A DNA stretch of 55,436 nucleotides from Paludibacteraceae bacterium (lineage in GTDB: Bacteria; Bacteroidota; Bacteroidia; Bacteroidales; Paludibacteraceae): positions 1 through 55,436 of the forward strand of contig JAFVBR010000035.1 in NCBI GenBank assembly GCA_017479885.1, written 5' to 3'. The notes under the pieces are model-generated. The model worked only from the letters and a program-made list of their open reading frames with translations. It was not told where the DNA came from and did not search any database. Positions within the stretch are counted from its first letter, which is position 1. Each line of letters begins with the position of its first letter. Both the position numbers and the translations under genes were made by a program. Below are positions 1 to 18,805 of the stretch, one piece after another.

Positions 1-195
1 AGCGACACCATTAATCCACTCGTCAAACTCCTTACTAAGAGTGGCTAAGTTAACGATAGTTGCACCAGTAGTAGTTGCAACAGAATCTTGCCATACAGGA
101 TCACCAGTTTGTCCGGATTGAACTAGATAAGCAGGAGCAGCTACCATTGACAAGCTCATAAAGAGAGCAGTTAGAAATAATGTAACTTTTTTCAT
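1..195 (-). CDS. Secreted protein, N-terminal part only (cut by window edge)
   Basis: The reading frame runs from an ATG at 195 to the window edge without a stop and gives 65 residues. It begins MKK and a hydrophobic stretch ending ..SLSMVAAPA, a clear Sec signal peptide with a likely cut after ALA/APA-type residues, so the product is exported. The visible mature part (LVQSGQTGDPVWQDS..) is not enough to name a family; a start rich in Thr/Val/Ile is common for secreted parallel beta-helix lyases, but that is only a guess. It has its own promoter carrying the same operator as the regulator gene at 2436-5066, so it is probably co-regulated with the lyase gene at 551-2428. Confidence 0.7.
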   Translation of the reverse strand, partial: MKKVTLFLTALFMSLSMVAAPAYLVQSGQTGDPVWQDSVATTTGATIVNLATLSKEFDEWINGVA

Positions 196-311
196 GATAA
201 TGAGAATTTGTTTATTAATGTTTTGTTTTTCATTTATTACTATAAGAACAATCTGTTCCTATTTTCTTCATTTTCTCGCAATTTTGTTCATATGCTGATC
301 AAAATCAATTG
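196..311. other. AT-rich 5' leader of the edge gene
   Basis: If transcription begins near 305 on the minus strand (about 7 bases past the -7 box at 312-319), the mRNA of the secreted protein has a leader of about 110 nt. I see no strong hairpin or riboswitch-like structure in it. Confidence 0.3.
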
Positions 312-368
312 CAAAAATACAACTATTGTTGGAAAGGTAGGTTCAAAATTGTACATTTTGGGTTCAAA
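312..368 (-). promoter_or_regulatory. Promoter with 21-bp-spaced direct-repeat operator (copy 1)
   Basis: On the minus strand a TTTGAACC octamer occurs twice (361-368 and 340-347) with an exact 21-bp period, two helical turns. The proximal copy ends 20 bp before a TATTTTTG box (312-319) that fits the Bacteroidota -7 consensus TAnnTTTG. No good -33 TTTG sits at the usual 20-bp distance, which suggests that an activator bound to the repeats replaces it. The same arrangement, with identical spacings, lies upstream of the regulator gene (5105-5161). The obvious candidate ligand is the AraC-type domain of that regulator (inference). Confidence 0.65.
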
Positions 369-550
369 TAGTTATATTTTTTGCATTTAACCATTAAAAA
401 CCAACGGAAAAGTTTTTCGAACTATAGTGTTGCTGATATGTGTAACAACTTGTTTTTAGTACTATAGACTGAATGTAGGTTGGCAGAACCACCAAAGAGT
501 ATATCTGTAAAAATCTAACATGTCACTTTTGACTTACTATGTGTTGCATT
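369..550. other. Intergenic, nothing clear
   Basis: This is the stretch between the lyase stop codon and the operator of the edge gene. It holds a repeated ACTATAG (around 422 and 463) and a weak GGTT/AACC hairpin near 480-493, but no convincing terminator or RNA gene. Confidence 0.3.
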
Positions 551-5104: not shown

Positions 5105-5161
5105 CAAAATTACAAAATTAATGCAAACACATGGTTCAAAATCGTACATTTGGGGTCTAAT
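5105..5161 (-). promoter_or_regulatory. Promoter with 21-bp-spaced direct-repeat operator (copy 2)
   Basis: On the minus strand the proximal TTTGAACC (5133-5140) is preceded, with a 21-bp period, by a degenerate copy (5154-5161). The roughly 30-bp block matches the block at 340-369 at all but about five positions, including the inner GTACATTT. A -7 box TAATTTTG (5105-5112) lies exactly 20 bp downstream of the proximal half-site, as in copy 1; a second TAATTTTG overlaps at 5113-5120. It drives the regulator-lyase operon, with a leader of about 30 nt. Confidence 0.65.
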
Positions 5162-5393
5162 TTTGTAATAATTTTACCTTTTTTGTGCTCGGAATTAGCT
5201 CAAGACGCCCAAACCTGAATTGCAAATGCTCAACTCTAAGTTGCTAACAGCGGTAGAGTCGGTATTAATATCGGCTCTTTTGAAAATTATTCAGTCGGAA
5301 TGTCACGGTACATTTATTCTGCCTTATGGCGCTTTCTTGCGGATTTCTGGAAGAATGATATGGTAGGTAATATTTATTTTTTTTCTGTTTTTA
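5162..5393. other. Intergenic with one weak hairpin
   Basis: Between the operator and the sRNA promoter there is no supported gene. A hairpin at 5255-5278 (AGAGTCG pairing with CGGCTCT, one G-T pair) is followed by four T on the plus strand, but there is no plus-strand gene upstream for it to terminate. Confidence 0.3.
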
Positions 5394-5425
5394 TTTGCAT
5401 TATTGTAAAATGTTGCCTACCTTTG
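5394..5425 (+). promoter_or_regulatory. Promoter of possible sRNA
   Basis: TTTG (5394-5397), a 20-bp spacer and TACCTTTG (5418-5425) match the Bacteroidota promoter consensus perfectly. The predicted start is near 5432. No coding region follows before the terminator at 5528-5561. Confidence 0.65.
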
Positions 5426-5431
5426 CCCCGT

Positions 5432-5561
5432 AATCTTAATTAAAACGCTACAATCTGCTTGGCGCTCAGGTGAAATAGTGTGATAGTATAATACATCCCA
5501 ATCAGACCCTTTATTTCTGCCTCTATTCAGAGACGGGTCGCAGACTCGTCTCTGTTTTTTT
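5432..5561 (+). ncRNA. Possible small RNA of about 130 nt upstream of enolase
   Basis: A perfect promoter on the left and an intrinsic terminator on the right bound about 130 nt with no supported open reading frame, and the enolase gene has its own separate promoter after the terminator. I do not recognise the sequence as tmRNA, SRP RNA or a known riboswitch; a relative of the Bacteroidales 6S-type RNAs is possible but not shown. A GACC around 5497-5500 can pair with GGTC in the terminator loop (5536-5540), a possible pseudoknot. The alternative is an attenuated leader of the enolase transcript. Confidence 0.4.
5528..5561 (+). terminator. Intrinsic terminator
   Basis: CAGAGACG (5528-5535) pairs with CGTCTCTG (5547-5554) around an 11-nt loop and is followed by seven T. 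It separates the sRNA from the enolase transcription unit. Confidence 0.8.
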
Positions 5562-5589
5562 ATAAACTTCTAAGCATAGCAAACTTTAA

Positions 5590-5621
5590 TTTGCATATTA
5601 GAGAAAATTGCCGTATCTTTG
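5590..5621 (+). promoter_or_regulatory. Enolase promoter
   Basis: TTTG (5590-5593), a 20-bp spacer and TATCTTTG (5614-5621). Predicted start near 5628, giving a leader of about 125 nt that contains the repeat at 5671-5730. Confidence 0.75.
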
Positions 5622-5670
5622 CAGACGTGAACCAATTGGTTTCAAGTTTCAAGTGCCATTCGGCTCTACA

Positions 5671-7059
<1,389 letters not shown>

Positions 7060-7083
7060 TTCTACTCCGATAATAAGTAAGAC

Positions 7084-7114
7084 CCCCTCCCCCAAATGAG
7101 GGGAGGGGATTTTT
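7084..7114 (+). terminator. Terminator of eno
   Basis: A perfect 9-bp GC-rich stem (7084-7092 with 7100-7108) around a 7-nt loop, followed by ATTTTTG. Confidence 0.85.
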
Positions 7115-7147
7115 GTCTCTCAGATATACACTATAAAACAATTTGTT

Positions 7148-7312
7148 ATGAAAAAGTATGTTTGCACCGTATGCGGCTACGTGTACGACCCCGAAGTGGG
7201 AGACCCCGACAGCGGTATAGCTCCCGGAACAGCGTTTGAAGACATACCCGCCGACTGGGTTTGCCCCCTGTGCGGAGTAGGCAAGGACGATTTCCAGCCC
7301 GAAGACGAATAA
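7148..7312 (+). CDS. Rubredoxin
   Basis: A 54-residue protein with the two iron-binding CxxCG knuckles ([15 protein letters not shown] near the start, [13 protein letters not shown] near the end) and the standard Gly/Asp/Pro middle. It carries a single Fe(Cys)4 centre and shuttles one electron in the cytoplasm. The flavodiiron protein 144 bp downstream is its natural redox partner in O2 or NO reduction. No clear TAnnTTTG promoter is seen between the eno terminator and the gene, so expression may depend on read-through or a less typical promoter. Confidence 0.95.
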
Positions 7313-7455
7313 GAATAATATTTACTATTGGGATATCTGCGATTGACTATTGAAATTACATGGTAGTTCCAATAGTTGTTGTGGTGTGGAGTCGTGTTTG
7401 GCATATTTAAGTCAATCGTCAATTGTCAAGAATAGAAATACTCAAGAAATACTCA
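7313..7455. other. Spacer with inverted repeats between rubredoxin and flavodiiron genes
   Basis: ACTATTG and CAATAGT form a 7-bp stem (about 7349-7379), and GATTGAC (about 7343) is inverted as GTCAATC (about 7411). This could be a processing or attenuation hairpin between the two genes; there is no U-tract. Confidence 0.3.
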
Positions 7456-8604
7456 ATGAATATCTTTTATATCGGTCAGAATGATTATGACCTGCAGTTG
7501 TTTGAGAGCCAGTATCCCGTGCCTTGCGGTATGGCTTACAATTCGTATCTGGTGGCAGATGAGAAAATAGCGGTTATGGACACCGTCGATCAGCGCAAGG
7601 GCGAAGAGTGGAAAGCCTCGCTGCAGTCAGCTCTCGGCGGCAGGCAGCCCGAATATCTGGTTGTGCAGCACATGGAGCCAGACCACTCCGCGCTCATCCT
7701 CTGGGCTATGGAGCAATATCCGCAACTCACCGTTGTAGCTTCGCAGAAAGCTCTCCAGATGCTTCCGCAGTTCTTCGAGGGCATCAGTCTCGAAGGCCGC
7801 ACCCTCGCCGTCAAAGAGGGCGACACCCTGTCGCTCGGCAATGCCACTCTGCGCTTTCTCATGGCGCCTATGGTGCACTGGCCCGAGGTCATGGTCACTT
7901 ACGAAGAGACCTCAAAAACGCTCTTCTCTGCCGATGCCTTCGGCTCGTTCGGAACGCTCGACCAGCAGGAAGACGACTGGGCATGCGAGGCGCGCCGCTA
8001 CTATTTCAATATCTGCGGCAAGTACGGTGCTCCCGTGCAGACACTGCTTAAAAAAGCCTCTCATTTTGATATCCTGACCATTCGTCCGCTCCACGGACCT
8101 GTGCTCGAAGGCGAGGCGATGGAGAACGCTCTGCGTCTCTACGACATCTGGAGCCGCTACGAGGCTGAGAAAGAGGGCGTGTTTGTGGGCTATGCTTCAA
8201 TACACGGCGGCACTGCAGCAGTGGCACAGCTGGTGGCTGAGATGCTGGAGAAACGCGGACAAAAGGTGTGCCTCATGGACCTGACCGAAGAAGAGGTGTC
8301 GTTCGCAGTGGAGGACGCTTTTGCTTACGGCAAGGCTGTGTTCGCCGCTTCGAGCTACGATGCGGGGCTTTTCCCGCCGATGTACAATCTGCTTCACCAT
8401 CTGCAGGCAAAGGCTTGGCAGAACAAACGTGTCGCTCTCATTGAGAACGGCTCGTGGGCGCCTTCTGCCGGTAAAGTGATGCGTGAGATGCTCTCTCAGA
8501 TGAAACAGGTGGAGATAGTGGAACCCGTGGTCACCATCCGCAGTCGTATGAAACAAGCCGACATCGCGGCTCTCGAAGCACTGGTAGAGGCATTGATAGG
8601 TTAG
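7456..8604 (+). CDS. Flavodiiron protein (rubredoxin:O2/NO oxidoreductase)
   Basis: I start it at the ATG at 7456 (MNIFYIGQNDYDLQLFESQ), which matches the family, rather than at an upstream TTG. The 382-residue product has a metallo-beta-lactamase-like di-iron domain with the HMEPDH motif (His72, Glu74, Asp76, His77), the downstream MVHWPEVM His, the FSADAFGSFG Asp and the IRPLHGP His. A flavodoxin domain follows (GYASIHGGTAAVAQLV for FMN phosphate, then FAASSYDAGLFPPM and ENGSWAPSAGKVM). These enzymes reduce O2 to water or NO to N2O without making superoxide, protecting strict anaerobes. Rubredoxin lies just upstream. Confidence 0.95.
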   Translation: MNIFYIGQNDYDLQLFESQYPVPCGMAYNSYLVADEKIAVMDTVDQRKGEEWKASLQSALGGRQPEYLVVQHMEPDHSALILWAMEQYPQLTVVASQKALQMLPQFFEGISLEGRTLAVKEGDTLSLGNATLRFLMAPMVHWPEVMVTYEETSKTLFSADAFGSFGTLDQQEDDWACEARRYYFNICGKYGAPVQTLLKKASHFDILTIRPLHGPVLEGEAMENALRLYDIWSRYEAEKEGVFVGYASIHGGTAAVAQLVAEMLEKRGQKVCLMDLTEEEVSFAVEDAFAYGKAVFAASSYDAGLFPPMYNLLHHLQAKAWQNKRVALIENGSWAPSAGKVMREMLSQMKQVEIVEPVVTIRSRMKQADIAALEALVEALIG

Positions 8605-8649
8605 GCAGTAACTCATAATACACTTAACTCTCAACTTTCGACTCTTAAT

Positions 8650-9798
8650 ATGAACACCTCGCAACTGATATCGGTATTGCTTGTGAATCTGCCTGCCTAC
8701 GTGCTTGGCGGCATTGCTTTCGTCAAGAAGATCCGCGATGAAAACTACTATGCAGCATGGGTCTTTCTGACCCTGCTGCTGGTGTTGGTTGCCGATGCCG
8801 TGTTCGTCTCTCAGATGTTCTTTGTAGAGACCTGCCTGCCTGTGTATATGGAAGTGCAGGCAGCTATGAGTGTCAGCATAGTGCCTTTGCTATATATGTT
8901 TCTCTCTCCTGAGGGAGGTGAAGAGCGTTGGTCGCGCACAACCATCATTCTGTGGTTGCTGACACTTCTGATATTGCTGCCGTCAGTGTCGTGGGAAGTG
9001 GTGCCTGCTTATGCCATCACTCAGTATTTTCCTCCCCGCGAGATAATGGGAATAAGCATCTTCTACAAAGGCAGGTATGTCTATTTCCTCGGTTGGACGG
9101 CAATCGCCCTGACGTTGCAGTCGTTTGTGGCACTCAGTCAGTTGAAACGTCTGTACAAGGCAGTTAGCAGTCATGGCGCGCACTATTCGTGGAAAGCCAA
9201 GGCGACATACTACTGGGATTTCAGTTGCGGCTACTGGCTGTCGCTCTCGTTTCTGGTGCCTCTTCATATCTGGCAGACACCTGCGATGCGCTGGGTGTTT
9301 TATGTGTCAGCATGCGTGATAATAGCTGTAGGCTGCCTGCTACTGGTGTTGGGTTTCGACATCAATCCTGTGGTTGACAACGAACACAAGAAACAGACGC
9401 TGCACGACTTCATGCTTGAGAACGGTGAGATAGTGGAGCGGATGAAACGGCTCTTGGAGGAGGACCGCATATATTTGGAGCACGGAATACAGTCGGACAC
9501 GGTAGCTGAAAGACTTGACACCAGTCATGCCTATTTCCTCAGAATGATGAGGATTGTGTATGATATGAGTTTTCCCGAATGGGTTAACCGTGCCCGCGTG
9601 GAATATGCAAAGCAGTTGCTGTCAGACCCTGATATAAAAACCGAACAGGTGGCTGCGGAGTGTGGCTACAAGGACGCATATACCCTGGCGCACATGTTTC
9701 ATCAGATAACCGGAACCACAATCTCCGAATGGCGTAACGGCAAAGGAGAGCAGGAGGACTTTGTGGAGACCGCTTCCCCCGAGATGGACGACGACTGA
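8650..9798 (+). CDS. Membrane-embedded AraC-family regulator
   Basis: The 382-residue protein has about seven hydrophobic helices in residues 1-240 (no signal peptide, no ligand cupin), a linker, and a C-terminal helix-turn-helix region (about 275-365) with QVAAECGYKDAYTLAHMFHQITGTTISEWR, typical of AraC recognition helices. This 7TM-AraC layout is frequent in Bacteroidales and implies sensing in or at the membrane. It follows the flavodiiron gene by 45 bp without a visible promoter, so it may be co-transcribed with it or act on neighbouring genes. The acidic C-tail (EMDDD) is unremarkable. Confidence 0.85.
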   Translation: MNTSQLISVLLVNLPAYVLGGIAFVKKIRDENYYAAWVFLTLLLVLVADAVFVSQMFFVETCLPVYMEVQAAMSVSIVPLLYMFLSPEGGEERWSRTTIILWLLTLLILLPSVSWEVVPAYAITQYFPPREIMGISIFYKGRYVYFLGWTAIALTLQSFVALSQLKRLYKAVSSHGAHYSWKAKATYYWDFSCGYWLSLSFLVPLHIWQTPAMRWVFYVSACVIIAVGCLLLVLGFDINPVVDNEHKKQTLHDFMLENGEIVERMKRLLEEDRIYLEHGIQSDTVAERLDTSHAYFLRMMRIVYDMSFPEWVNRARVEYAKQLLSDPDIKTEQVAAECGYKDAYTLAHMFHQITGTTISEWRNGKGEQEDFVETASPEMDDD

Positions 9799-9813
9799 TA
9801 TTTTTCGGTCAGG

Positions 9814-9845
9814 TTTGCCGGTCTCGGGATTTTTTTGTACCTTTG
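9814..9845 (+). promoter_or_regulatory. Promoter of the exopolysaccharide operon
   Basis: TTTG (9814-9817), a 20-bp spacer and TACCTTTG (9838-9845), a perfect match. The ATG of the first gene is only 9 bases after the -7 box, so the mRNA should be leaderless or nearly so. Confidence 0.72.
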
Positions 9846-9854
9846 CACCCCCTT

Positions 9855-10604
9855 ATGAAAAACACTATCAAAATATTGTCAGCGTTCTGTCTTATGGTAA
9901 TGACAGCGTGTTCGGCTTCTCACTCTACAGTAGATGTGAGAATGTACAGCAACTTGAATCTGCGTGTTTACACACCGCATTTCAGCAGTATTGATTTGCG
10001 CGTTCAAACTATGCCGCAGAAGGCGGAGGAGAATGTGATATATGTAGCAGAAGCAGCATTCACGGAGGCCAAGATTGACACCTTCATGCATGCCAACATC
10101 GACGGCAACCATGTGGCATCGGGAGTGTGGTACGAGGGTGCACGTTGTGTCGAGACTCCCGACAAGGTGGGCAATACAGGCGGTTTCGTATGGTATGACG
10201 GGCACTATGAGTTCTTTGCCGACACCGCTTCTGCCGAAGAAGCCTTGCTTCGCGCGGCAGAGCACGGGGGAATGGGTTTCCGTCAGGAGGCTATCATTCA
10301 TAAAGGCAAATATGTGCCCAATGCCAGAACCGAGAATCCCCGCTACAACCGTGTTGAGATATATCGTGTGCTTGCCGAACTGGACGGCAAACTGTGTCTG
10401 ATAGAAAACATCAACCCCGTGCCTTTCACCGAATTCCTGCCCAATCTGCAGGCGTTGCAACCAACGGAAGCACTGTATCTTGATATGGGTCTGGGTTGGA
10501 ATCACTCATGGTACAGAAAACCCGATGGTTCCGTAACGGAGATACATCCTACACACTTCAAGTGCCGTTATTGCACCAATTGGATAACGTTCTATAAAAA
10601 ATAG
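9855..10604 (+). CDS. Lipoprotein resembling the phosphodiester glycosidase (NAGPA) fold
   Basis: Start at ATG 9855. A lipoprotein signal (MKNTIKILSAFCLMVMTAC) gives a 249-residue product. The body follows the order of blocks seen in NAGPA-type phosphodiester glycosidases: a variable NG/DG segment, a GGFVWYDG strand, a dGk-like IIHKGKYVPNAR, an LIENINPVPFTEFL segment and a terminal ALYLDMGLGWNHSWYR in place of the usual LDGGGS loop. This is fold-level resemblance; I cannot prove catalysis. It is the first gene of an operon with a processive glycosyltransferase and an outer-membrane barrel, which would suit trimming or release of a surface glycan. The only typical promoter before 17657 lies directly ahead of it. 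Confidence 0.6.
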   Translation: MKNTIKILSAFCLMVMTACSASHSTVDVRMYSNLNLRVYTPHFSSIDLRVQTMPQKAEENVIYVAEAAFTEAKIDTFMHANIDGNHVASGVWYEGARCVETPDKVGNTGGFVWYDGHYEFFADTASAEEALLRAAEHGGMGFRQEAIIHKGKYVPNARTENPRYNRVEIYRVLAELDGKLCLIENINPVPFTEFLPNLQALQPTEALYLDMGLGWNHSWYRKPDGSVTEIHPTHFKCRYCTNWITFYKK

Positions 10605-10648
10605 GAAGACAGAATTCAACCTCCAAACTTATCTCAACCTGACTTGAA

Positions 10649-11854
10649 ATGCTTGCAATTCCGTACACCTTGGCTTCTGTTACAGGACCTACAGCCTACT
10701 TCTACGGCTGGCAGGTGTTGGAATATGTGCGTTATCTTGCTGACGCATATCTCAAGCAGTTCCCATGGCAGGTCCAGATGTCATTGATAATCATCACTAT
10801 CAGTTCCCTTTCTATTTTTATTCTGTATGCACTTTTCTTTCAGCGGATCATCCGCAGGAGTTCCCGTAACCGTGCTCTGCAGAAGTGCAGGGAACGCTAC
10901 GAAGAGGCGTTCCGCACCATACTTCTAACCAAGGAGAAGATGCCTCAGGAGGAGATGGAATATGTGGCAGGCGCAGACGAGGCGGAACTGCGGATGACCA
11001 ACGGTGACGTGTTTACGCAACTGCTTGTCAGTCTCCGTCTGGAGATGGCGGACGATGTGTATATTCCCAATATGCAGCGTCTGTGCAACATCACGGGCGT
11101 GAAGAATTTTTTGGAGGCAAAGCTGGTTAAGAACCGCGATGTGGAGCAGACTCTGCAGGTGCTGATGACACTGCCTATAAGGGTCTCGGAGGGTGCACTC
11201 GCCCCATACACGGATAATAAGAATCTTCGTATTCGTGAGTTGGCACGCTCATACTTCGGCTTTTGCAGCAAGACGGAACCTTTTCATTTTGTGACGGAGG
11301 ATGTCAATAAATCCTTTAATCTGTGGTATCCTCCTATTTTCCATAGGCTCTGCAGCTGGCATCGTGCCAAAGGCCATCCGATACCGCAGTTGCTGGCATT
11401 GGCACGCCGTTCTGACAACGATGCCCGCAAGGCGCTTTTTATCTCGGAGATACCTTATTGGGGTACCAAAGACGAGAAGACAGGTATCTGTCAGTTTCTC
11501 ACTTCAAGCAGTCCGAAGTGCCGTTCGGCAGCCATTCAGGCACTGGCATTGATAGGTGACCCCGCTTCGGAGGCGGAACTGGTGAAAAACTACAGTATCC
11601 AGTTCCCCACTGCCAAACGCGAGACACTGCTTGCCATTGCCAAAATCAACACCGGCAGGCAGACCGAGTTTTTCCGTCAGGCATATCTAAACTCCACTTC
11701 GCACAGCACCCGTGCGGTGGCATTGTCGTGTCTGTTCAACTATGGAGAAAGCGGCAGACAGGTATTCTACGAACTGCGCCGCGCAGGTCTTGACGACAGC
11801 AGGTTCTTCGAGCAGATTATCTCTGCAGAAGAGATGTATGGGGAGGGGATTTGA
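10649..11854 (+). CDS. HEAT-repeat protein with one membrane helix, EPS operon
   Basis: The 401-residue product has a short periplasmic or partly hydrophobic start, one strong membrane helix (about 45-66, MSLIIITISSLSIFILYALFF) and a basic stop-transfer sequence (RRSSRNR). A cytoplasmic alpha-solenoid fills the rest, with recognisable HEAT-type units such as SAAIQALALIGDPASEAELVKNY and TRAVALSCLFNYGESGRQVF. No enzymatic motif is visible. It lies 69 bp upstream of the glycosyltransferase gene, so I infer a scaffold or regulatory partner on the cytoplasmic face of the synthase, possibly in place of the c-di-GMP domains of other systems. Confidence is good for the architecture and low for the role. 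Confidence 0.72.
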   Translation: MLAIPYTLASVTGPTAYFYGWQVLEYVRYLADAYLKQFPWQVQMSLIIITISSLSIFILYALFFQRIIRRSSRNRALQKCRERYEEAFRTILLTKEKMPQEEMEYVAGADEAELRMTNGDVFTQLLVSLRLEMADDVYIPNMQRLCNITGVKNFLEAKLVKNRDVEQTLQVLMTLPIRVSEGALAPYTDNKNLRIRELARSYFGFCSKTEPFHFVTEDVNKSFNLWYPPIFHRLCSWHRAKGHPIPQLLALARRSDNDARKALFISEIPYWGTKDEKTGICQFLTSSSPKCRSAAIQALALIGDPASEAELVKNYSIQFPTAKRETLLAIAKINTGRQTEFFRQAYLNSTSHSTRAVALSCLFNYGESGRQVFYELRRAGLDDSRFFEQIISAEEMYGEGI

Positions 11855-11923
11855 CAGGAGGTTTTTGAATGGTCCGTTGATATGACACTAAAGTAAGAAA
11901 AAGGATAACAACAAGTAAGAAAT

Positions 11924-13339
11924 ATGTGGGAAACGATACTATATTTCTACGGCTATATAATATTCTTCTATTCGCTGGCACTGATATCGTCTTACTCGAT
12001 ACTATTGGTGCTGGCGTATATCCACAGTGCCAAGTATCTGAAGTGGACCAATGACCATATCTGCTACGCTGTGGAGGGGAGTCCGTTCGCGCCGGGAGTA
12101 AGCATTGTGGCACCTGCATACAACGAGGAGAAGACCATTGTTGACAATGTGAATTCGCTTCTAATGCTTGACTATCCGAACTTTGAGGTCATCATTGTCA
12201 ACGACGGTTCGAAGGACAAGACTCTGGAACTACTTATCAGCAACTTCGACTTGGAGGAAATTCCTTACGAGTATGTACCCCGAATCCATTGCAAGCCTTT
12301 CAAGCGTCTGTTCCGTTCCCAGAATCCCAAGTTCAGACGCCTTACAGTGGTTGACAAGGTAAACGGCGGCACCAAGGCGGATGCCGTCAATGCAGGTCTC
12401 AACGTGTTGCGTACACCTTATTTTATCAATACCGATGTGGACTGCATTCTTGCCCGTGATGCCATCAAACACTGCATCTTCCCTATCTTGCAGGACGAGA
12501 GTATCATTGCTGTCAGCGGCACCATGTCGATGAGCAACGGCAGTATTTCGGAGAATGGCCAGTTGGTTGAAATAAGGCCTTCCAACCATCCGATACCTTT
12601 GTTTCAGGACTTGGAATACAAACGCAGTTTCCTCGTAGGCAAGATGGGCTGGAGTCAGATAAACGCCATGAACAATGTGTCCGGCGGATATGGTTTGTTC
12701 AACTCCGAGGTGGTGCTTGCCGCCGGAGGCTACGACAGTTCTTCCTTTGCCGAAGATATGGATATTATCACCCGCATGATGGGCTATTGTTGCGAACAGA
12801 AACGTCCGTATCGCGTTGTGCAGATTCCTCATACCTGCTGTTGGACAGAAGGTCCGGGCACGCTGAAAGTGCTGAAGCGTCAGCGAATCCGCTGGGGCAG
12901 GGGACTGATACAGCACATGTGGAAACACCGCTACATGCTGTTCAATCCCAAGTACAAACGCCTTGGAATGATTACGCTGCCTTATACTCTCATCTTTGAG
13001 TTGCTTGCTCCCGTGATAGAGTTTATAGGTATGATAATGCTGATAGTCCTCTTCTTTACATACAACATCAACTGGCAGACATTCTGGATTCTCTTTGCCG
13101 CCATTTATGCCTTCTCGCTTCTGCTGTCAAGTTTCGTTATCTTCTATGATTATATGGCGGGCGGGTCATACAAGAGTGCATCCGGTTATCTGAAACTCCT
13201 GCTGGCGGCAGTGTTCGAGCCTGTTGTCTATCATCCATTGCTGGTGTTCTTCTCGTTGCGCGGTTACTACAATTTCCTCACCAACCGTGCCGCAGTGTGG
13301 GGAGAGATGACGCGTACAGGTACAAGGAAAAAGAAATAG
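11924..13339 (+). CDS. Processive family-2 glycosyltransferase (PgaC/hyaluronan-synthase-like)
   Basis: The 471-residue protein has an N-terminal membrane helix (about 5-33), a GT2 domain with APAYNEEKTI and VNDGSKDKT, the DxD motif in NTDVDC (Asp171, Asp173), the ED pair (Glu277, Asp278) and QRIRW (Gln320, Arg323, Trp324), then three membrane helices near 355-440. The D, DxD, ED and QxxRW set marks processive synthases that polymerise a sugar and push it through their own membrane channel (PgaC, HasA, BcsA). The sugar cannot be read from sequence. Neighbours on both sides (HEAT anchor, TPR/outer-membrane barrel) fit a synthase-dependent export line. Confidence 0.9.
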   Translation: MWETILYFYGYIIFFYSLALISSYSILLVLAYIHSAKYLKWTNDHICYAVEGSPFAPGVSIVAPAYNEEKTIVDNVNSLLMLDYPNFEVIIVNDGSKDKTLELLISNFDLEEIPYEYVPRIHCKPFKRLFRSQNPKFRRLTVVDKVNGGTKADAVNAGLNVLRTPYFINTDVDCILARDAIKHCIFPILQDESIIAVSGTMSMSNGSISENGQLVEIRPSNHPIPLFQDLEYKRSFLVGKMGWSQINAMNNVSGGYGLFNSEVVLAAGGYDSSSFAEDMDIITRMMGYCCEQKRPYRVVQIPHTCCWTEGPGTLKVLKRQRIRWGRGLIQHMWKHRYMLFNPKYKRLGMITLPYTLIFELLAPVIEFIGMIMLIVLFFTYNINWQTFWILFAAIYAFSLLLSSFVIFYDYMAGGSYKSASGYLKLLLAAVFEPVVYHPLLVFFSLRGYYNFLTNRAAVWGEMTRTGTRKKK

Positions 13340-13359
13340 GCGGACCTTGAAAAAATGAA

Positions 13360-15717
13360 ATGAACCATCTGTTTTTACATATTGTCTCTGTCTTGCTGCT
13401 CCTTTCTGCCGGTGCTTTTGCACAGCATTCAGGAACAGTGGTGCATGCAAAACATCATAGAGGCGGCGAGTCTGCAAGCGAACCGACACTGCGTGAGCAT
13501 ATTCAGTCGCTCAACGATGTGGCACGCGAGCGTCTGACCGACGGTATCAGCATGTCGCCGTCGGAGTATAGCGACACTCTGCGGGCGCTTTTCCGTGCTG
13601 ACCGTTGGGACGAATGTATGCCGTTGCTCATTGCTGCCGAAAGAGAGTGGGGACTCACATCTGACATATCGTTTCTCTATGGCAGGTACTGGTATCATCA
13701 GGGCGATGTTTCAACAGCAAGACGCTATCTGCTGACTGCCGTTCGCGAGGACGAGTCAAATGCCGAGGCGCTGGAGTTGCTGGTGAAACTGGAGGAGGGC
13801 GAAAAAAACTATTCCACTGCCATTGTCCATGTGAACGACCTGCTGGGTTTCAGTCCGTATAACCCCCGTCTGTGGCGAAAGAAGATAGAACTCTACAGGC
13901 TCAGCGGTAACGAGCAGGAGGCGAACCGTCTGCTTGAGCGCCTCGCACAGATATATCCTCAGAACGAACAGATACAGAACGACCTGCAGTATCAGCGTGA
14001 GTTGCAGGTAGAGCAAATGCGCAAGCAGGGTAACGAACAAGAGTCGCAGCAGGCGATAAGAGAACTTATACAGACTAATCCCAAGGATGCGCAGTATTAT
14101 CTCGACTTGTCGGCCTCTCTGCTGAAAGAAGGACGTATGGACGAGGCGGCTGAAGTGTGTGCCAAGGGTGTTAACAACACAGGCGGCAACCGCCAGCTCA
14201 TCCGTCGCAGGGTAAGCATCTTGCAGGACCAGGCGCAGTATCAGGAGGCGGAGATATATCTGGACGACTGTATCCGCCGCTACCATGCAGGCGACCTGGA
14301 TGCACTACGCCGCTATTTGCACGAAGAAGCAGCCATGGCTGCAGACAATGCGGACGCATACACACGCTACCAGCACCTTTATGGAGAAACCCAATCAGAA
14401 GAGTCGCTTGACTGGCTGATAAATACGGCTATGAGAAGAGAGTGGTGGGGTGATGCGGAATACTATCTTCAACAGGCCCAGACACAGCGGGGTAAAAACA
14501 AGGATATTCTCAACAAGCAATATACGGTTGAAAAACGTATGGGGAACGACAAACAGGCTGCACGTATTCTGGAAGAGTTGTACATTGCCGACCCTGCCGA
14601 CTCAGACATACGCGAACTTATAGCGGAGCGGAGACTGCAGACTGCCGGAGGACTGATGCAGGATGAACAGTGGGATAATGCCCTGACTGCATTGCATGAA
14701 GCTGATACTCTTACCCGTGACTCGGATATGCTGGCTGTGATAGAAAGACGTATCCGCACCTGCGAGGCTATGTTGCCTGACACTACTGTTGTGAAAGACA
14801 GCCTTGACCAGATGCAGCACTCCGTCATCTATGAGAAAGAGCACAACCTCGACTCAGCATACGCCTGCCTTATGCGCTACCGCCCCTCTGTTGACGAATA
14901 CCACGAAGTGCAGCGGCATCGCTACACCCTGCAGTCGCGTCTGATGAAAAACAACCTCTTGCTTGAGTATCAGTATGCAAGACGTACAAGCGTGGATGAA
15001 TGGAGCCACAATGCCTATGTCACTTACACCCGGACCCTCACCAAACACGATGCTCTCGAAGTATCGGCCGCATACGCAGGCAGGGAGGGTGCCTCATGGA
15101 CTGAGACGACCGATGAAGGCACCGACACCACCTATGTGTCAGCCGGTGGCACCGGTGTGCAGCTCGGAGCAGGCTACTACCACTATTTCGACTGGGGTGA
15201 CATCGGTGTGCAGGCAACGTGGGCAAGCCGGTTCCTCCCTAAGGCGTCCGTCAAGATGCAGTTGACAGAAAACCTTCCGGCGGAATGGACTCTTACGGAA
15301 CGCCTGTCATGGAGATACATAACCGATGAGACGCGCTACCACGTTTTCTCCGCCGGTCTGTCTGCGGGCTGGAGTGTCGGCAGTTTTCTGCTCACACCGT
15401 CTATTGACGCTTTTCTTATGCAGAAGCATGTGTATTTCAACGGCGGACTGAAGATGAACTACTACCCTCTTGAAGGAGACCGCAGCAATGTGTTCGCTTC
15501 TGTGGGAGTAGGTAATGCACCTGAACTTACATTGCTCGACAGCAACCTCCCCGTCAGATTCGCTCATCTTAACACCAATGTGTCAGTAGGCGGCATGTAC
15601 TTGATTAACGGGCACTTCGCACTGACTGGCAGTATAGACTGGTATGTGATGGGTAACAATGATGCCTCCGTGCGCAACTACATCTACCTGCATGTAGGAC
15701 TCAACATATTCTTCTGA
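13360..15717 (+). CDS. TPR protein with C-terminal outer-membrane beta-barrel (PgaA/YaiO-like exporter)
   Basis: The 785-residue product begins with a signal peptide (MNHLFLHIVSVLLLLSAGAFA). Residues about 60-480 are tandem TPR helices (for example WDECMPLLIAAEREWG, ATARRYLL-like and DAQYYLDLSASLLKEGRMDEAAEV). Residues about 530-785 are a chain of amphipathic strands with Tyr/Trp girdles, ending LHVGLNIFF with the terminal aromatic that BAM recognises. TPR plus barrel is the layout of PgaA and of YaiO-family outer-membrane proteins that pass a nascent polymer out of the periplasm. It starts 20 bp after the glycosyltransferase gene, and its stop is followed after 2 bp by the next gene. Confidence 0.82.
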   Translation: MNHLFLHIVSVLLLLSAGAFAQHSGTVVHAKHHRGGESASEPTLREHIQSLNDVARERLTDGISMSPSEYSDTLRALFRADRWDECMPLLIAAEREWGLTSDISFLYGRYWYHQGDVSTARRYLLTAVREDESNAEALELLVKLEEGEKNYSTAIVHVNDLLGFSPYNPRLWRKKIELYRLSGNEQEANRLLERLAQIYPQNEQIQNDLQYQRELQVEQMRKQGNEQESQQAIRELIQTNPKDAQYYLDLSASLLKEGRMDEAAEVCAKGVNNTGGNRQLIRRRVSILQDQAQYQEAEIYLDDCIRRYHAGDLDALRRYLHEEAAMAADNADAYTRYQHLYGETQSEESLDWLINTAMRREWWGDAEYYLQQAQTQRGKNKDILNKQYTVEKRMGNDKQAARILEELYIADPADSDIRELIAERRLQTAGGLMQDEQWDNALTALHEADTLTRDSDMLAVIERRIRTCEAMLPDTTVVKDSLDQMQHSVIYEKEHNLDSAYACLMRYRPSVDEYHEVQRHRYTLQSRLMKNNLLLEYQYARRTSVDEWSHNAYVTYTRTLTKHDALEVSAAYAGREGASWTETTDEGTDTTYVSAGGTGVQLGAGYYHYFDWGDIGVQATWASRFLPKASVKMQLTENLPAEWTLTERLSWRYITDETRYHVFSAGLSAGWSVGSFLLTPSIDAFLMQKHVYFNGGLKMNYYPLEGDRSNVFASVGVGNAPELTLLDSNLPVRFAHLNTNVSVGGMYLINGHFALTGSIDWYVMGNNDASVRNYIYLHVGLNIFF

Positions 15718-15719
15718 CA

Positions 15720-16262
15720 ATGATGAAACGTAAGAAATATTATATTATCTTCTGCCTGCTGCTGATTCTTCCGGTTGCCGCAACCGGTTGCCGCAAGCTG
15801 GTATGTCCTACCAATGTAAGGATTGAGCACCCGGTCAGACACTATCTTCCTATTTTGCAGGGTGACATACTTAATATGTTCTGGACACTCTACAATGATG
15901 GTCCGGAGCCGCTTGTCATTCAGGATGTGCAGCCTTCGTGCAGTGCAGTGCAACTTGTTTCCGAAGTGCCCGCAGTAGTGATGGCAGGTGATTCTGTAGT
16001 GATGAATTTTCACTTCGACACCGACAAGAACGTGAGCCTTGCCGCCCATGCCGTCCGCATATACGGTAACATAGAGCCCGAAGGTGAGGCGGAGATGAAT
16101 TTTGATGTGCATATCATCCCGCCGTCTGATGACAGGTCCGACTATGAAGAACATTTCTTCGACAAACTGACGGAGGAAAATGTGGCGGAAAAGAGGCTGA
16201 AGCGGAATCTGTATTACACTGATTCGCTTTCAGTGGAAGTGTTGTTCGGATATACATTGTGA
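15720..16262 (+). CDS. DUF1573-type lipoprotein, EPS operon
   Basis: A 180-residue product with a signal sequence ending LPVAATGC (lipobox) and a single Ig-like domain of the DUF1573 kind: FWTLYNDGPEPLVIQDVQPSCSAVQL and the AGDSVVMNFHFDTDKNVSLAAHAVRIYGN strand pair. DUF1573 proteins are common Bacteroidales envelope proteins without an assigned activity. It begins 2 bp after the barrel gene, a tight translational link, so it may be an accessory subunit of the outer-membrane exporter. Confidence is high for the family and low for the role. Confidence 0.78.
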   Translation: MMKRKKYYIIFCLLLILPVAATGCRKLVCPTNVRIEHPVRHYLPILQGDILNMFWTLYNDGPEPLVIQDVQPSCSAVQLVSEVPAVVMAGDSVVMNFHFDTDKNVSLAAHAVRIYGNIEPEGEAEMNFDVHIIPPSDDRSDYEEHFFDKLTEENVAEKRLKRNLYYTDSLSVEVLFGYTL

Positions 16263-16291
16263 TAAAGAAACAAACAAATATAAGAATTATT

Positions 16292-17635
16292 ATGAAAAAG
16301 AATCATTTACTGATTATGGTTGCGGTTGCTGTGCTGACTGCATGCAATCAGACAACCGACAACAGCGTCCTGCTGCGTCCTGTCAAGCAGGCTGACTATG
16401 TTATCTATTCCGGGAGTCACACTCACGAGTCCTCTCTTCCTGATGTAGCCGGCAAGGCCAAACAGTCACATCGTGCACCGGCAGCCGCTTTCGCCTATTA
16501 CAAGGTGTGGGACGGCAACCTGCCTGCTGAATACAAAGACCGCTTCCCCGAGGCTGTGGGCAGTGAGGAAAAAACGTATGTGATAAACTATATCCGTCAG
16601 CACCCGCAGGAGGGCAGTCAGGTGTTCCTTTGCGAGAACTATTTCGTTCAGAACATCGGCTCTTCATTTGACTATTATACGGGCAACACGCTCGTTGACC
16701 ACAATGGGGCACAACACGGTGTGACGGGTGGCAACCAGATGGATTATCTCGTTATCAACGGCAACCACATCAACGACTACAACAGCACTTGGGGACAGGA
16801 TGCCCTCTGCCTCAACCTGCCTCTCGAAGACCCCACATATCACGACAGTTGGGGCGACAAGGACAACACCAAGCACAATGCATGGACAGTATATGAAATA
16901 GAAGGCTACGGCTACTATCTGTGCTTTGATTACCGCACTGCCAAAAACAGCGGTGAGTATTATGACGGCGACGGCGTGTACAATGACTGGGTAATCAAAC
17001 TCGTTCCTGCCGATGGTACCAATCCGCGTCCTGCCGATGCTGTTGAACCTGAAAAAAACGTTGTGCCCGGACTTGGCGAAGTGGAGGTCAATCTCTCACT
17101 CAATGCTGAAAAGACGGAGGATGACTATGTGGTTACAAAACTCTCCATCCATGTGCGCGACACCACTGATATTGAGGTCTTTCTGCCCGTTGATATGCAT
17201 TACTACTGCGACAAAGACGACATGAACATCGTGTTGAGCAATCGCGATGGTGTGTTGCAATACAATACCTATGTAGAAACCGTATCTATGGATATTGCCG
17301 GCAATACAGTAACTCTCAATGTACGTTTTGAAGACGGAGGCATCGTGGTTTCGACAAGAGGTATCAACAGCGGGGTGCTCAACTATTGCCGCGACACTTA
17401 TCAGGACGGCATAACTTTCGAGATATGGAACTACTATCATGACATTCTCCGCACCGACCTGCAGGAAATTCTCAACAGAAGTACAATAACCTTTACTGCC
17501 AGCCCCGGACGTTATGTCAATGCCTATGGTGTTGTTGAAGGAGACGTCAATCCTCTCGACTGTCAGGTTCTCCCGCCTTCAGACTATATATACAGCAGCA
17601 CAGAAAACTTCAACAGAATTTATCTGCCGCAATAA
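16292..17635 (+). CDS. Large lipoprotein of unknown function, last gene of EPS operon
   Basis: I start it at ATG 16292 (MKKNHLLIMVAVAVLTAC, good lipobox) rather than at a GTG at 16259 that would hide the signal. The 447-residue product is acidic and aromatic. Around 190-240 it has a GYYLCFDYRTA..YYDGDGVYNDWVIKL stretch reminiscent of the D-x-D-YND metal-like motif of DUF4114-type beta-sandwich proteins. The rest is beta-rich with no motif I recognise. It ends 21 bp before a strong hairpin, so it closes the operon. A surface glycan-binding role would fit but is unproven. Confidence 0.7.
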   Translation: MKKNHLLIMVAVAVLTACNQTTDNSVLLRPVKQADYVIYSGSHTHESSLPDVAGKAKQSHRAPAAAFAYYKVWDGNLPAEYKDRFPEAVGSEEKTYVINYIRQHPQEGSQVFLCENYFVQNIGSSFDYYTGNTLVDHNGAQHGVTGGNQMDYLVINGNHINDYNSTWGQDALCLNLPLEDPTYHDSWGDKDNTKHNAWTVYEIEGYGYYLCFDYRTAKNSGEYYDGDGVYNDWVIKLVPADGTNPRPADAVEPEKNVVPGLGEVEVNLSLNAEKTEDDYVVTKLSIHVRDTTDIEVFLPVDMHYYCDKDDMNIVLSNRDGVLQYNTYVETVSMDIAGNTVTLNVRFEDGGIVVSTRGINSGVLNYCRDTYQDGITFEIWNYYHDILRTDLQEILNRSTITFTASPGRYVNAYGVVEGDVNPLDCQVLPPSDYIYSSTENFNRIYLPQ

Positions 17636-17656
17636 ACATTCTCACATCCTCAACAA

Positions 17657-17696
17657 AACTGCCGCGAACAAAAACACCATAATGTTCGCGGCAGTT
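17657..17696 (+). terminator. Hairpin ending the EPS operon
   Basis: A perfect 13-bp stem (17657-17669 with 17684-17696) around a 14-nt loop, followed by the short G-TTT-G. The U-run is weak, but the stem is very stable. Confidence 0.7.
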
Positions 17697-17845: not shown

Positions 17846-18805
17846 TCAACCTTTCCGATACCATTCCGCTATTTCCTTGCGGCGTTTCAGAGCAAGGGCG
17901 ATGAGACAACCCAAAATGTAACCAGTTATCAGTGCAATCAGTGTGCATTTCAGCCTGCCGTTTAAGGCGCGTGGTATGGTAGTGAAAGCCTGCTGTGCAA
18001 CTACGGGAGCAGTACACATCGCCAGTTCGCGGTCGGCATGCTCGGTGGTGTTGTAGAACTCCATGATTTCAGGTGTGAAGAGTTTGATTTCGCGTCTGCC
18101 AAGCACCATTCCGTTGCCCCACTTCATCTGCGCCTGAGCTGCACCACCCTGCTCAAAATAGAAAGCAGAGGTCAGAGAGTCAAGTTTCTCCAACTGGTCG
18201 TGGCAGAACTGCACCTTGCGCTCCTGAAGTGCGCGTTTCTTCTCAAACGAAGCCTGCAGCGAGGGGTTGCTGTTGAGATATGCCAGTATGTGCTCGCCTA
18301 CTACAGGTACATTGTCAGGCCGCTTGGTGCGGAAACGAAGGCACATAACATTGGGCATAACTACGTTGATAGTGTCGGTTACATCGTGCTTGTGTCTATA
18401 GTCCACCATGTCGGCTGTTGAGTCATTGAGGAAGTCAATAACCTCGAAGGTCTCAAACTTCACAAGACCGTCGGCCTGGTCGGGTGTGAGGTTGAGAGCA
18501 GCGGTTATCTCCTGGTTGGGGAAGAACCTGTAACTGAATTCAAGCGGGCGGAAAGCCTGTTTGACATCTTCTGCCAGGGGTCCGTTGAGATACACTATAG
18601 CCTCTGCCTTGTAGATTCGGTTTAGAGGACGAGAGTAGTAGTAACCGGCACCGAAGAAGATAATTATGCAGGGCACGGTGATGAACCAGTAGTGCAGCGC
18701 AAGGCGCACACTGTCGAGACAAAGGTGCCATGCACCGATGCAAACTTTGCCCATCCAGCGGAAAAATGCCGCCGTAAGGTCGAATAGATTCATGTTTTTG
18801 TCCAT
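17846..18805 (-). CDS. Wzz-like polysaccharide co-polymerase/chain-length protein
   Basis: A 319-residue protein with two membrane helices, one near the N-terminus (about 38-58, ITVPCIIIFFGAGYYYSR) and one at the C-terminus (about 285-305, LIALITGYILGCLIALAL). They enclose a periplasmic domain that begins with IYKAEAIVYL, the usual Wzz beta strand, and continues with a long helical part (ASFEKKRALQERKVQFCHDQLEKLDSL). The short C-tail has no tyrosine kinase domain. Wzz proteins set polymer length in O-antigen or capsule assembly. It is convergent with the EPS operon and seems to belong to the lepA transcript. The start could also be the ATG at 18793. Confidence 0.72.
   Translation of the reverse strand: MDKNMNLFDLTAAFFRWMGKVCIGAWHLCLDSVRLALHYWFITVPCIIIFFGAGYYYSRPLNRIYKAEAIVYLNGPLAEDVKQAFRPLEFSYRFFPNQEITAALNLTPDQADGLVKFETFEVIDFLNDSTADMVDYRHKHDVTDTINVVMPNVMCLRFRTKRPDNVPVVGEHILAYLNSNPSLQASFEKKRALQERKVQFCHDQLEKLDSLTSAFYFEQGGAAQAQMKWGNGMVLGRREIKLFTPEIMEFYNTTEHADRELAMCTAPVVAQQAFTTIPRALNGRLKCTLIALITGYILGCLIALALKRRKEIAEWYRKG

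Follow-up and report, generated by a model that had tools for sequence, protein, structure and literature searches.

The window analysed in this study, a 55,436-nucleotide stretch corresponding to contig JAFVBR010000035.1 of a Paludibacteraceae bacterium, carries six open reading frames (ORFs), designated g1 to g6, all located on the plus strand and tightly packed, with intergenic gaps of 2 to 69 bases when the ATG codons at 9855 and 16292 are taken as the starts of g1 and g6 (Table 1). The cluster encodes a family 2 glycosyltransferase (GT2), preceded directly by a HEAT-repeat membrane protein and followed by a protein with TPR repeats and a predicted C-terminal beta-barrel, together with three lipoproteins, and is considered here as a candidate system for the synthesis and export of a polysaccharide. 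The source genome has a size of 2.80 Mb and is 93.8% complete; its closest named relatives are metagenome-assembled genomes of Paludibacteraceae and Bacteroidales, and three of the related loci (L012, L015, and L019) come from ruminant rumen or omasum.

Table 1 Coordinates of the g1–g6 cluster, its flanking signals, and the adjacent regulator gene in the window
Feature	Position	Strand	Basis
AraC-type regulator with N-terminal multi-helix membrane part	8650..9798	+	Pfam HTH_18, 3.1e-16
Bacteroidales-type promoter match	9814..9845	+	TTTG-N20-TAccTTTG
g1, NAGPA-like lipoprotein	9855..10604	+	family-level PF09992 matches
g2, HEAT-repeat membrane protein	10649..11854	+	Pfam HEAT_2, 7.2e-12
g3, processive-type GT2 synthase (probable)	11924..13339	+	471 residues; GT2 domains, 4.4e-20; only glycosyltransferase families in Pfam
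g4, TPR protein with C-terminal beta-barrel (predicted)	13360..15717	+	Pfam TPR matches
g5, DUF1573 lipoprotein	15720..16262	+	PF07610, 2.3e-7
g6, 447-residue lipoprotein of no known family	16292..17635	+	start at ATG 16292
Terminator-like hairpin	17657..17696	+	-26.4 kcal/mol, z -7.6

The position of the six genes, and their enclosure between a promoter match and a hairpin, agreed with a preliminary description of this DNA that had been made from the sequence alone. The promoter match follows a pattern, which we take to be the Bacteroidales promoter consensus, with nine occurrences in the window where 0.59 would arise by chance, and no shuffle reached nine; a sigma-70 promoter scan of the window gave no excess (9 against 11.9 expected). 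The start of g1 was placed at the ATG codon because the TTG codon at 9843 falls within the promoter match. The strong hairpin was not listed by a simple terminator scan. Since the promoter match, the short gaps, and the hairpin give the spacing of a single transcript, the arrangement of the six genes fits one operon as far as sequence features can indicate. The AraC-type regulator gene upstream, which the preliminary description had left out together with the phylum-wide, receiver-linked form of the locus discussed below, is a conserved neighbour and is probably transcribed separately from g1–g6.

The complete set of catalytic motifs attributed earlier to the g3 product was invariant in all 26 aligned homologues (D94, D171xD173, E277-D278, and QRxRW at 320–324), and QxxRW is cited, in passages of PMC8669469, as a signature of processive glycosyltransferases. 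The AlphaFold2 model of the protein, with a predicted local distance difference test (pLDDT) score of 88.6, matched hyaluronan and cellulose synthases in both its catalytic and membrane parts; because residues 8..471 aligned with hyaluronan synthase and 1..471 with BcsA, a membrane part is present in the model, and the structural check suggested for the GT2 yielded a predicted membrane part resembling those of characterized synthases. Motifs and model together indicate that the protein is probably a processive-type polysaccharide synthase.

The g2 product was confirmed as a HEAT protein with one predicted membrane helix, located near residues 40–61 and bordered by two lysine or arginine residues before it and seven after it; in each of the 12 rows of the HEAT alignment (A2), the stretch that follows the helix has more of these residues than the stretch that precedes it, and this excess is consistent with the predicted cytosolic location of the HEAT solenoid. 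Two groups of HEAT proteins from Bacteroidales proved to be homologous (hhalign P 99.8, E 2e-28, 350 columns), and the HEAT profile, when compared with the PDB, matched designed alphaRep and HEAT proteins and no synthase subunit. A HEAT model was then built from the Bacteroidales rows of alignments A2 and A3 and tried on held-out loci. A HEAT gene recognized by this model was located directly 5' of the GT2 gene in 30/30 loci of a phylum search, these being the best-scoring matches and including two members of the training set (the window and G095). Twenty wider regions were chosen from the same search, nine of which overlap the 30 loci, and HEAT was detected in 18 of them by the model and in a further one (L136) by Pfam. 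Counted over held-out Bacteroidota loci only, HEAT lay directly 5' of the GT2 in 38 of 39 (28/28 plus 10/11). As a control, the HEAT model was run on ten loci that surround other GT2s or the E. coli pga and nfr genes, and none of their 57 ORFs matched it; this control set contains two overlapping pairs (L010/L023 and L011/L024) and one locus, L023, that begins at a contig end.

In two of the relatives, the N-terminal part of the HEAT partner contains SPOR domains (L066, 6734–8716, and L068, 5973–7952). The SPOR domain binds peptidoglycan. In L132, a gene of the nucleotide-sugar epimerase/dehydratase type (6010–6984) adjoins the HEAT gene, which is a possible clue to the substrate and the sole such hint met. 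No description of a HEAT–GT2 pair was found in searches of the open-licence library of PubMed Central (PMC). The terms HEAT, Bacteroid-, and YaiO are absent from the main text of a survey of synthase-dependent operons (PMC7112194); in excerpts of PMC12419801, HEAT appears solely in a Wnt context, a table of the iron stimulon in PMC10434189 has a HEAT protein beside a TonB-dependent receptor and not a GT2, and a section of PMC7159879 names HEAT among the scaffolding domains of conflict systems.

The TPR repeats of g4 and the DUF1573 domain of g5 were confirmed by Pfam. Sequence comparison indicates that the barrel of g4 is probably related to YaiO, because its homologue in the clade relative L122 matches the Pfam YaiO family (PF19413) at 1.1e-39, the window-clade members L021 and L123 match a barrel-only hidden Markov model, a TPR/YaiO model (which includes a barrel stretch of L056) covers g4 residues 486–729, and the barrel profile aligns with YaiO barrels (hhalign P 93.2, E 2.9e-7). 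The barrel-only model, trained on nine of the proteins in the loci concerned, matches 27 of the 36 loci outside the inner clade of the window and 2 of 13 within it; the TPR/YaiO model also includes TPR stretches, so its counts below stand for TPR or barrel. A YaiO barrel gene adjoins a GT2 gene in E. coli as well (yaiO/yaiP), where, to our knowledge, no HEAT gene is known.

In the close-relative loci, whose GT2s are 74–93% identical to that of the window and among which G010, G020, and G024 belong to the same genus, the HEAT, GT2, and TPR genes recurred together, so that the joint conservation of these neighbours, a check suggested by the preliminary description, was observed both here and in the wider set of Bacteroidota loci. 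Locus L025 was left out of these counts, as it comes from the same genome as L012. The DUF1573 gene was present in 6/7 loci with the 3' side in the data (missing in L019), g6 in 5/6 (missing in L012), and an AraC gene stood beside HEAT in 5/6 loci with the 5' side in the data (missing in L017). An opposite-strand gene separates DUF1573 from g6 in L014 and L018, that of L014 encoding an MFS-type transporter (11250–12488, minus strand). In L019, a single ORF (8440–10296) consists of the start of the TPR protein followed by most of g6, the barrel and DUF1573 being missing, which reflects either a deletion or an assembly fault.

The g6 lipoprotein, which holds at 447 residues from its ATG start, gave no informative match in Pfam, NCBIfam, or the PDB, the last yielding two profilin matches with E values of 0.15 and 0.3, and its structure was predicted with a pLDDT of 52.9. 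An order-wide search at E 1e-5 found it only in the window's own genome (1/247). Homologues with 27–30% identity also lie by the L054 cluster, and g6 is therefore supported as part of the system.

Across Bacteroidota, the HEAT–GT2 pair is frequently accompanied by a CheY-like receiver gene. Receivers were counted when standalone and located on the same strand within four genes 5' of the GT2, and L018, L023, L024, L025 (genome of L012), and L055 were excluded from the gene-content counts. Among the 36 loci outside the inner clade, HEAT was found by model in 34, a receiver in 25, TPR/YaiO in 26, a sulfatase-domain transferase in 9, and DUF4838 in 1. Note that the models for the receiver, TPR/YaiO, transferase, DUF4838, and DUF1573 were expanded on Bacteroidales loci, for which the counts obtained with them cannot be taken as independent. 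The three receivers that were scanned proved to be ordinary domains of the Response_reg family (E 8.7e-28, 1.8e-28, and 1.4e-29). Standalone receivers were commoner near the GT2 (26/411 ORFs) than in the flanks (3/218), with a Fisher p of 0.004 that is only a guide, because the loci share ancestry and the receiver model was derived from the same neighbourhoods; the excess suggests a signal input to the complex. A hybrid kinase lies near the receiver-bearing loci L120 and L126. Directly 5' of HEAT–GT2 in L131, a REC-GGDEF-REC protein is encoded (5633–7192), so one lineage may tie the module to cyclic di-GMP (c-di-GMP). In L119 the GT2 is fused to a sulfatase-domain transferase (5117–8551), and in L120 such a transferase is fused to TPRs (10029–12455); these fusions hint at polymer decoration in those lineages.

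The window clade departs from this pattern. In a GT2 tree (IQ-TREE, 52 rows, excluding L018, L024, L025, and L055 and keeping L023), a group of 15 rows was recovered at 100/100, with L122 as its first branch and the other 14, including the window, forming an inner group also at 100/100. L122 carries a receiver, HEAT, GT2, TPR/YaiO, and DUF4838, and the 13 inner-clade loci other than the window have receiver 0, HEAT 13, TPR/YaiO 13, DUF4838 4, DUF1573 9, and sulfatase-domain transferase 0, several of the contigs stopping within the gene cluster. In L054 there is a divergent receiver-like gene, with DUF4838 and DUF1573 just beyond the counting rules. A likely history would thus be that DUF4838 was gained first, that the receiver was then lost while DUF1573 was acquired, and that DUF4838 later disappeared from the close relatives of the window, among which g6 appears; the window clade in this respect resembles a natural experiment in receiver loss. 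The DUF4838 protein of L122 matched the PDB in its last part only, to a beta-hexosaminidase chain. In the window's own genome, a 748-residue frame (L141, contig C47, 128555–128869) gave a DUF4838 match of 20.1 bits (E 3e-4), short of the 26.6-bit cut-off, and is perhaps a distant relative of this hydrolase-like gene, which is absent from the window locus.

We interpret the locus as the form that, in this clade, is taken by a synthase-dependent polysaccharide exporter found across Bacteroidota, in which the HEAT protein would serve as a regulatory or docking subunit, and assign this reading a probability of about 0.67. The type of machine is known, its HEAT partner is unusual and phylum-wide, and the window holds the receiver-less local form. 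In the scheme that we infer, the GT2 would polymerize a nucleoside-diphosphate sugar on the cytosolic face and thread the chain through its own membrane helices, while the HEAT protein, held by its single-helix anchor with its predicted solenoid in the cytosol, would dock on the GT2 and control or stabilize it, and its helix may complete the synthase channel. The periplasmic TPR arm and the beta-barrel would carry the chain across the outer membrane, and the DUF1573 and 447-residue lipoproteins may work at the envelope, either on the polymer or together with it. Many relatives encode a receiver 5' of the synthase, and the HEAT solenoid is probably the target of its signal; the window clade has no such receiver, and in the close relatives of the window control may rest with the adjacent membrane-AraC regulator. 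The earlier suggestion that the HEAT protein replaces a regulatory subunit is plausible on this account, and the linked receiver genes lend it weight.

Several results count against this interpretation. No HEAT was detectable in the held-out locus L133 or in L024, whose GT2 is 36% identical, and in the near relative L054 the HEAT repeats fall under Pfam detection. The g4 product itself matched neither Pfam YaiO nor, at E 10, the barrel-only model. In the structural comparison of the GT2, the highest Z (30.5) belonged to the archaeal mannosyltransferase PcManGT, a name that implies no polymer synthase, and the Foldseek TM-scores to hyaluronan synthases were modest (0.57–0.66 by query). The distribution of the GT2 is also patchy, as it was found in only 4/37 genomes of the same genus (E 1e-60), 30/294 Bacteroidales genomes (E 1e-70), and 84/345 sampled genomes of the phylum (profile, E 1e-90 or better), the window's own genome being counted each time.

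The strongest rival to a regulatory HEAT subunit is a scaffold for assembly or localization that positions the synthase at a site in the cell or connects it with peptidoglycan and the export barrel, control being purely transcriptional; we regard this as possible, but the less probable view. The SPOR domains of the L066 and L068 partners speak for it, as does the window clade, which has no receiver by the counting rule, yet has an AraC gene adjoining the locus in close relatives. On the other side, the linkage of a receiver to most of the other loci, and its enrichment near the GT2 by a model built from the same neighbourhoods, suggest signal input. A more far-reaching version of the regulatory reading can be offered only tentatively: the loci may represent an undescribed, large class of Bacteroidota synthases in which a phosphorelay determines the rate post-translationally, the CheY-like receiver (joined in L120 and L126 by a hybrid kinase) docking on a HEAT adaptor that gates the GT2, in the role that c-di-GMP has for Pga, Bcs, and Nfr, and the window clade would have dropped the receiver and shifted control to the level of transcription. 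The HEAT-partnered synthase with its linked receiver is a concrete candidate for the control of secreted polymers in Bacteroidota.

The resemblance of the locus to PgaABCD, which the preliminary description had already drawn, includes a PgaC-like GT2, the logic of a TPR/beta-barrel exporter, and a membrane partner beside the synthase, a place taken in that system by the small protein PgaD (described so in part of PMC7112194). The window locus differs in having HEAT in PgaD's place, a different barrel, and no PgaB. That it is simply a divergent machine for poly-beta-1,6-N-acetylglucosamine (PNAG), with HEAT substituting for PgaD, appears unlikely to us. The best NCBIfam match of the GT2 is indeed PgaC_IcaA (TIGR03937), but its 114.4 bits are far under the cut-off of 422.3, and the match of g4 to the PgaA model (TIGR03939) is weak (21.9 against 366.65 bits) and covers the TPR stretch. 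PgaC is the nearer of the two E. coli K-12 GT2s used as yardsticks (9e-25, with no significant match to NfrB, E 0.23), but an identity of 26% leaves the sugar unfixed. No PgaD-named family occurred among the matches of the eight locus proteins, E. coli PgaD gave no match at E 1, and no PgaB-type gene was found at the locus, the two small deacetylase-domain matches of the genome being located on other contigs. Filing the locus under Pga was therefore rejected, the GT2 and g4 being far under the PgaC and PgaA cut-offs and PgaD and PgaB missing.

The Bcs system shares with the locus the GT2 fold with its membrane part, and certain relatives beyond the window clade have, either as a separate protein or as part of a fusion, a BcsG-like sulfatase-domain transferase that bears N-terminal helices; the difference is that the window locus has no protein of the PilZ, BcsB, or BcsC type, and the window clade no such transferase (0/13). 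NfrBA-YbcH of E. coli, as described in passages of PMC8669469, is similar in combining a GT2 that has DxD, TED, and QxxRW with an outer-membrane pore rich in TPRs and an accessory protein in the periplasm, but the window locus has a separate HEAT protein and no MshEN fused to the GT2 (471 residues against 745 in NfrB). Assignment to Nfr was rejected, as the GT2 has no significant NfrB match. The same passages describe the Pga, cellulose, and Nfr exporters as c-di-GMP-activated, but no c-di-GMP domain occurs at the window locus, in keeping with what had been described, and the 93.8%-complete genome yielded no GGDEF match; c-di-GMP control of the window locus is therefore judged unlikely.

It is improbable that the GT2 makes no polymer at all and transfers just a single sugar, or a small number of them, to a lipid or a glycan of the cell surface. 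Although the best structural score went to PcManGT, the hyaluronan synthases align over more residues, QxxRW is invariant, and a TPR/beta-barrel gene lies in the same cluster.

The label of g1 as NAGPA-like stood at the family level, with 3/7 members matching Pfam NAGPA (PF09992; best 3.2e-7), and did not stand for the window member itself, which has no such match; a PDB search with the family gave nothing. The proposal that g1 is the polymer-trimming enzyme of the machine, for which its NAGPA-related family and its place after the promoter match, the sole one within the unit, could be cited, is very improbable and was rejected because g1 is not linked to the GT2, being present in 0/6 close-relative loci with the 5' side in the data (no ORF there matching at E 1e-3), nor was this GT2 present in any of the six surroundings examined among seven other genomes with a g1 relative. 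Deeper relatives carry DUF4838 instead, and g1 looks like a local insertion.

Two further features of the window may be mentioned. A 319-residue protein (17846–18805, minus strand) that faces the end of the operon is predicted to span the membrane with two helices, matches Wzz very weakly (E 0.17), and is possibly another envelope-polymer gene. Between 22609 and 27238, also on the minus strand, five small ORFs stand in a row, three of them flagged as lipoproteins, which are unrelated to the g1–g6 cluster.

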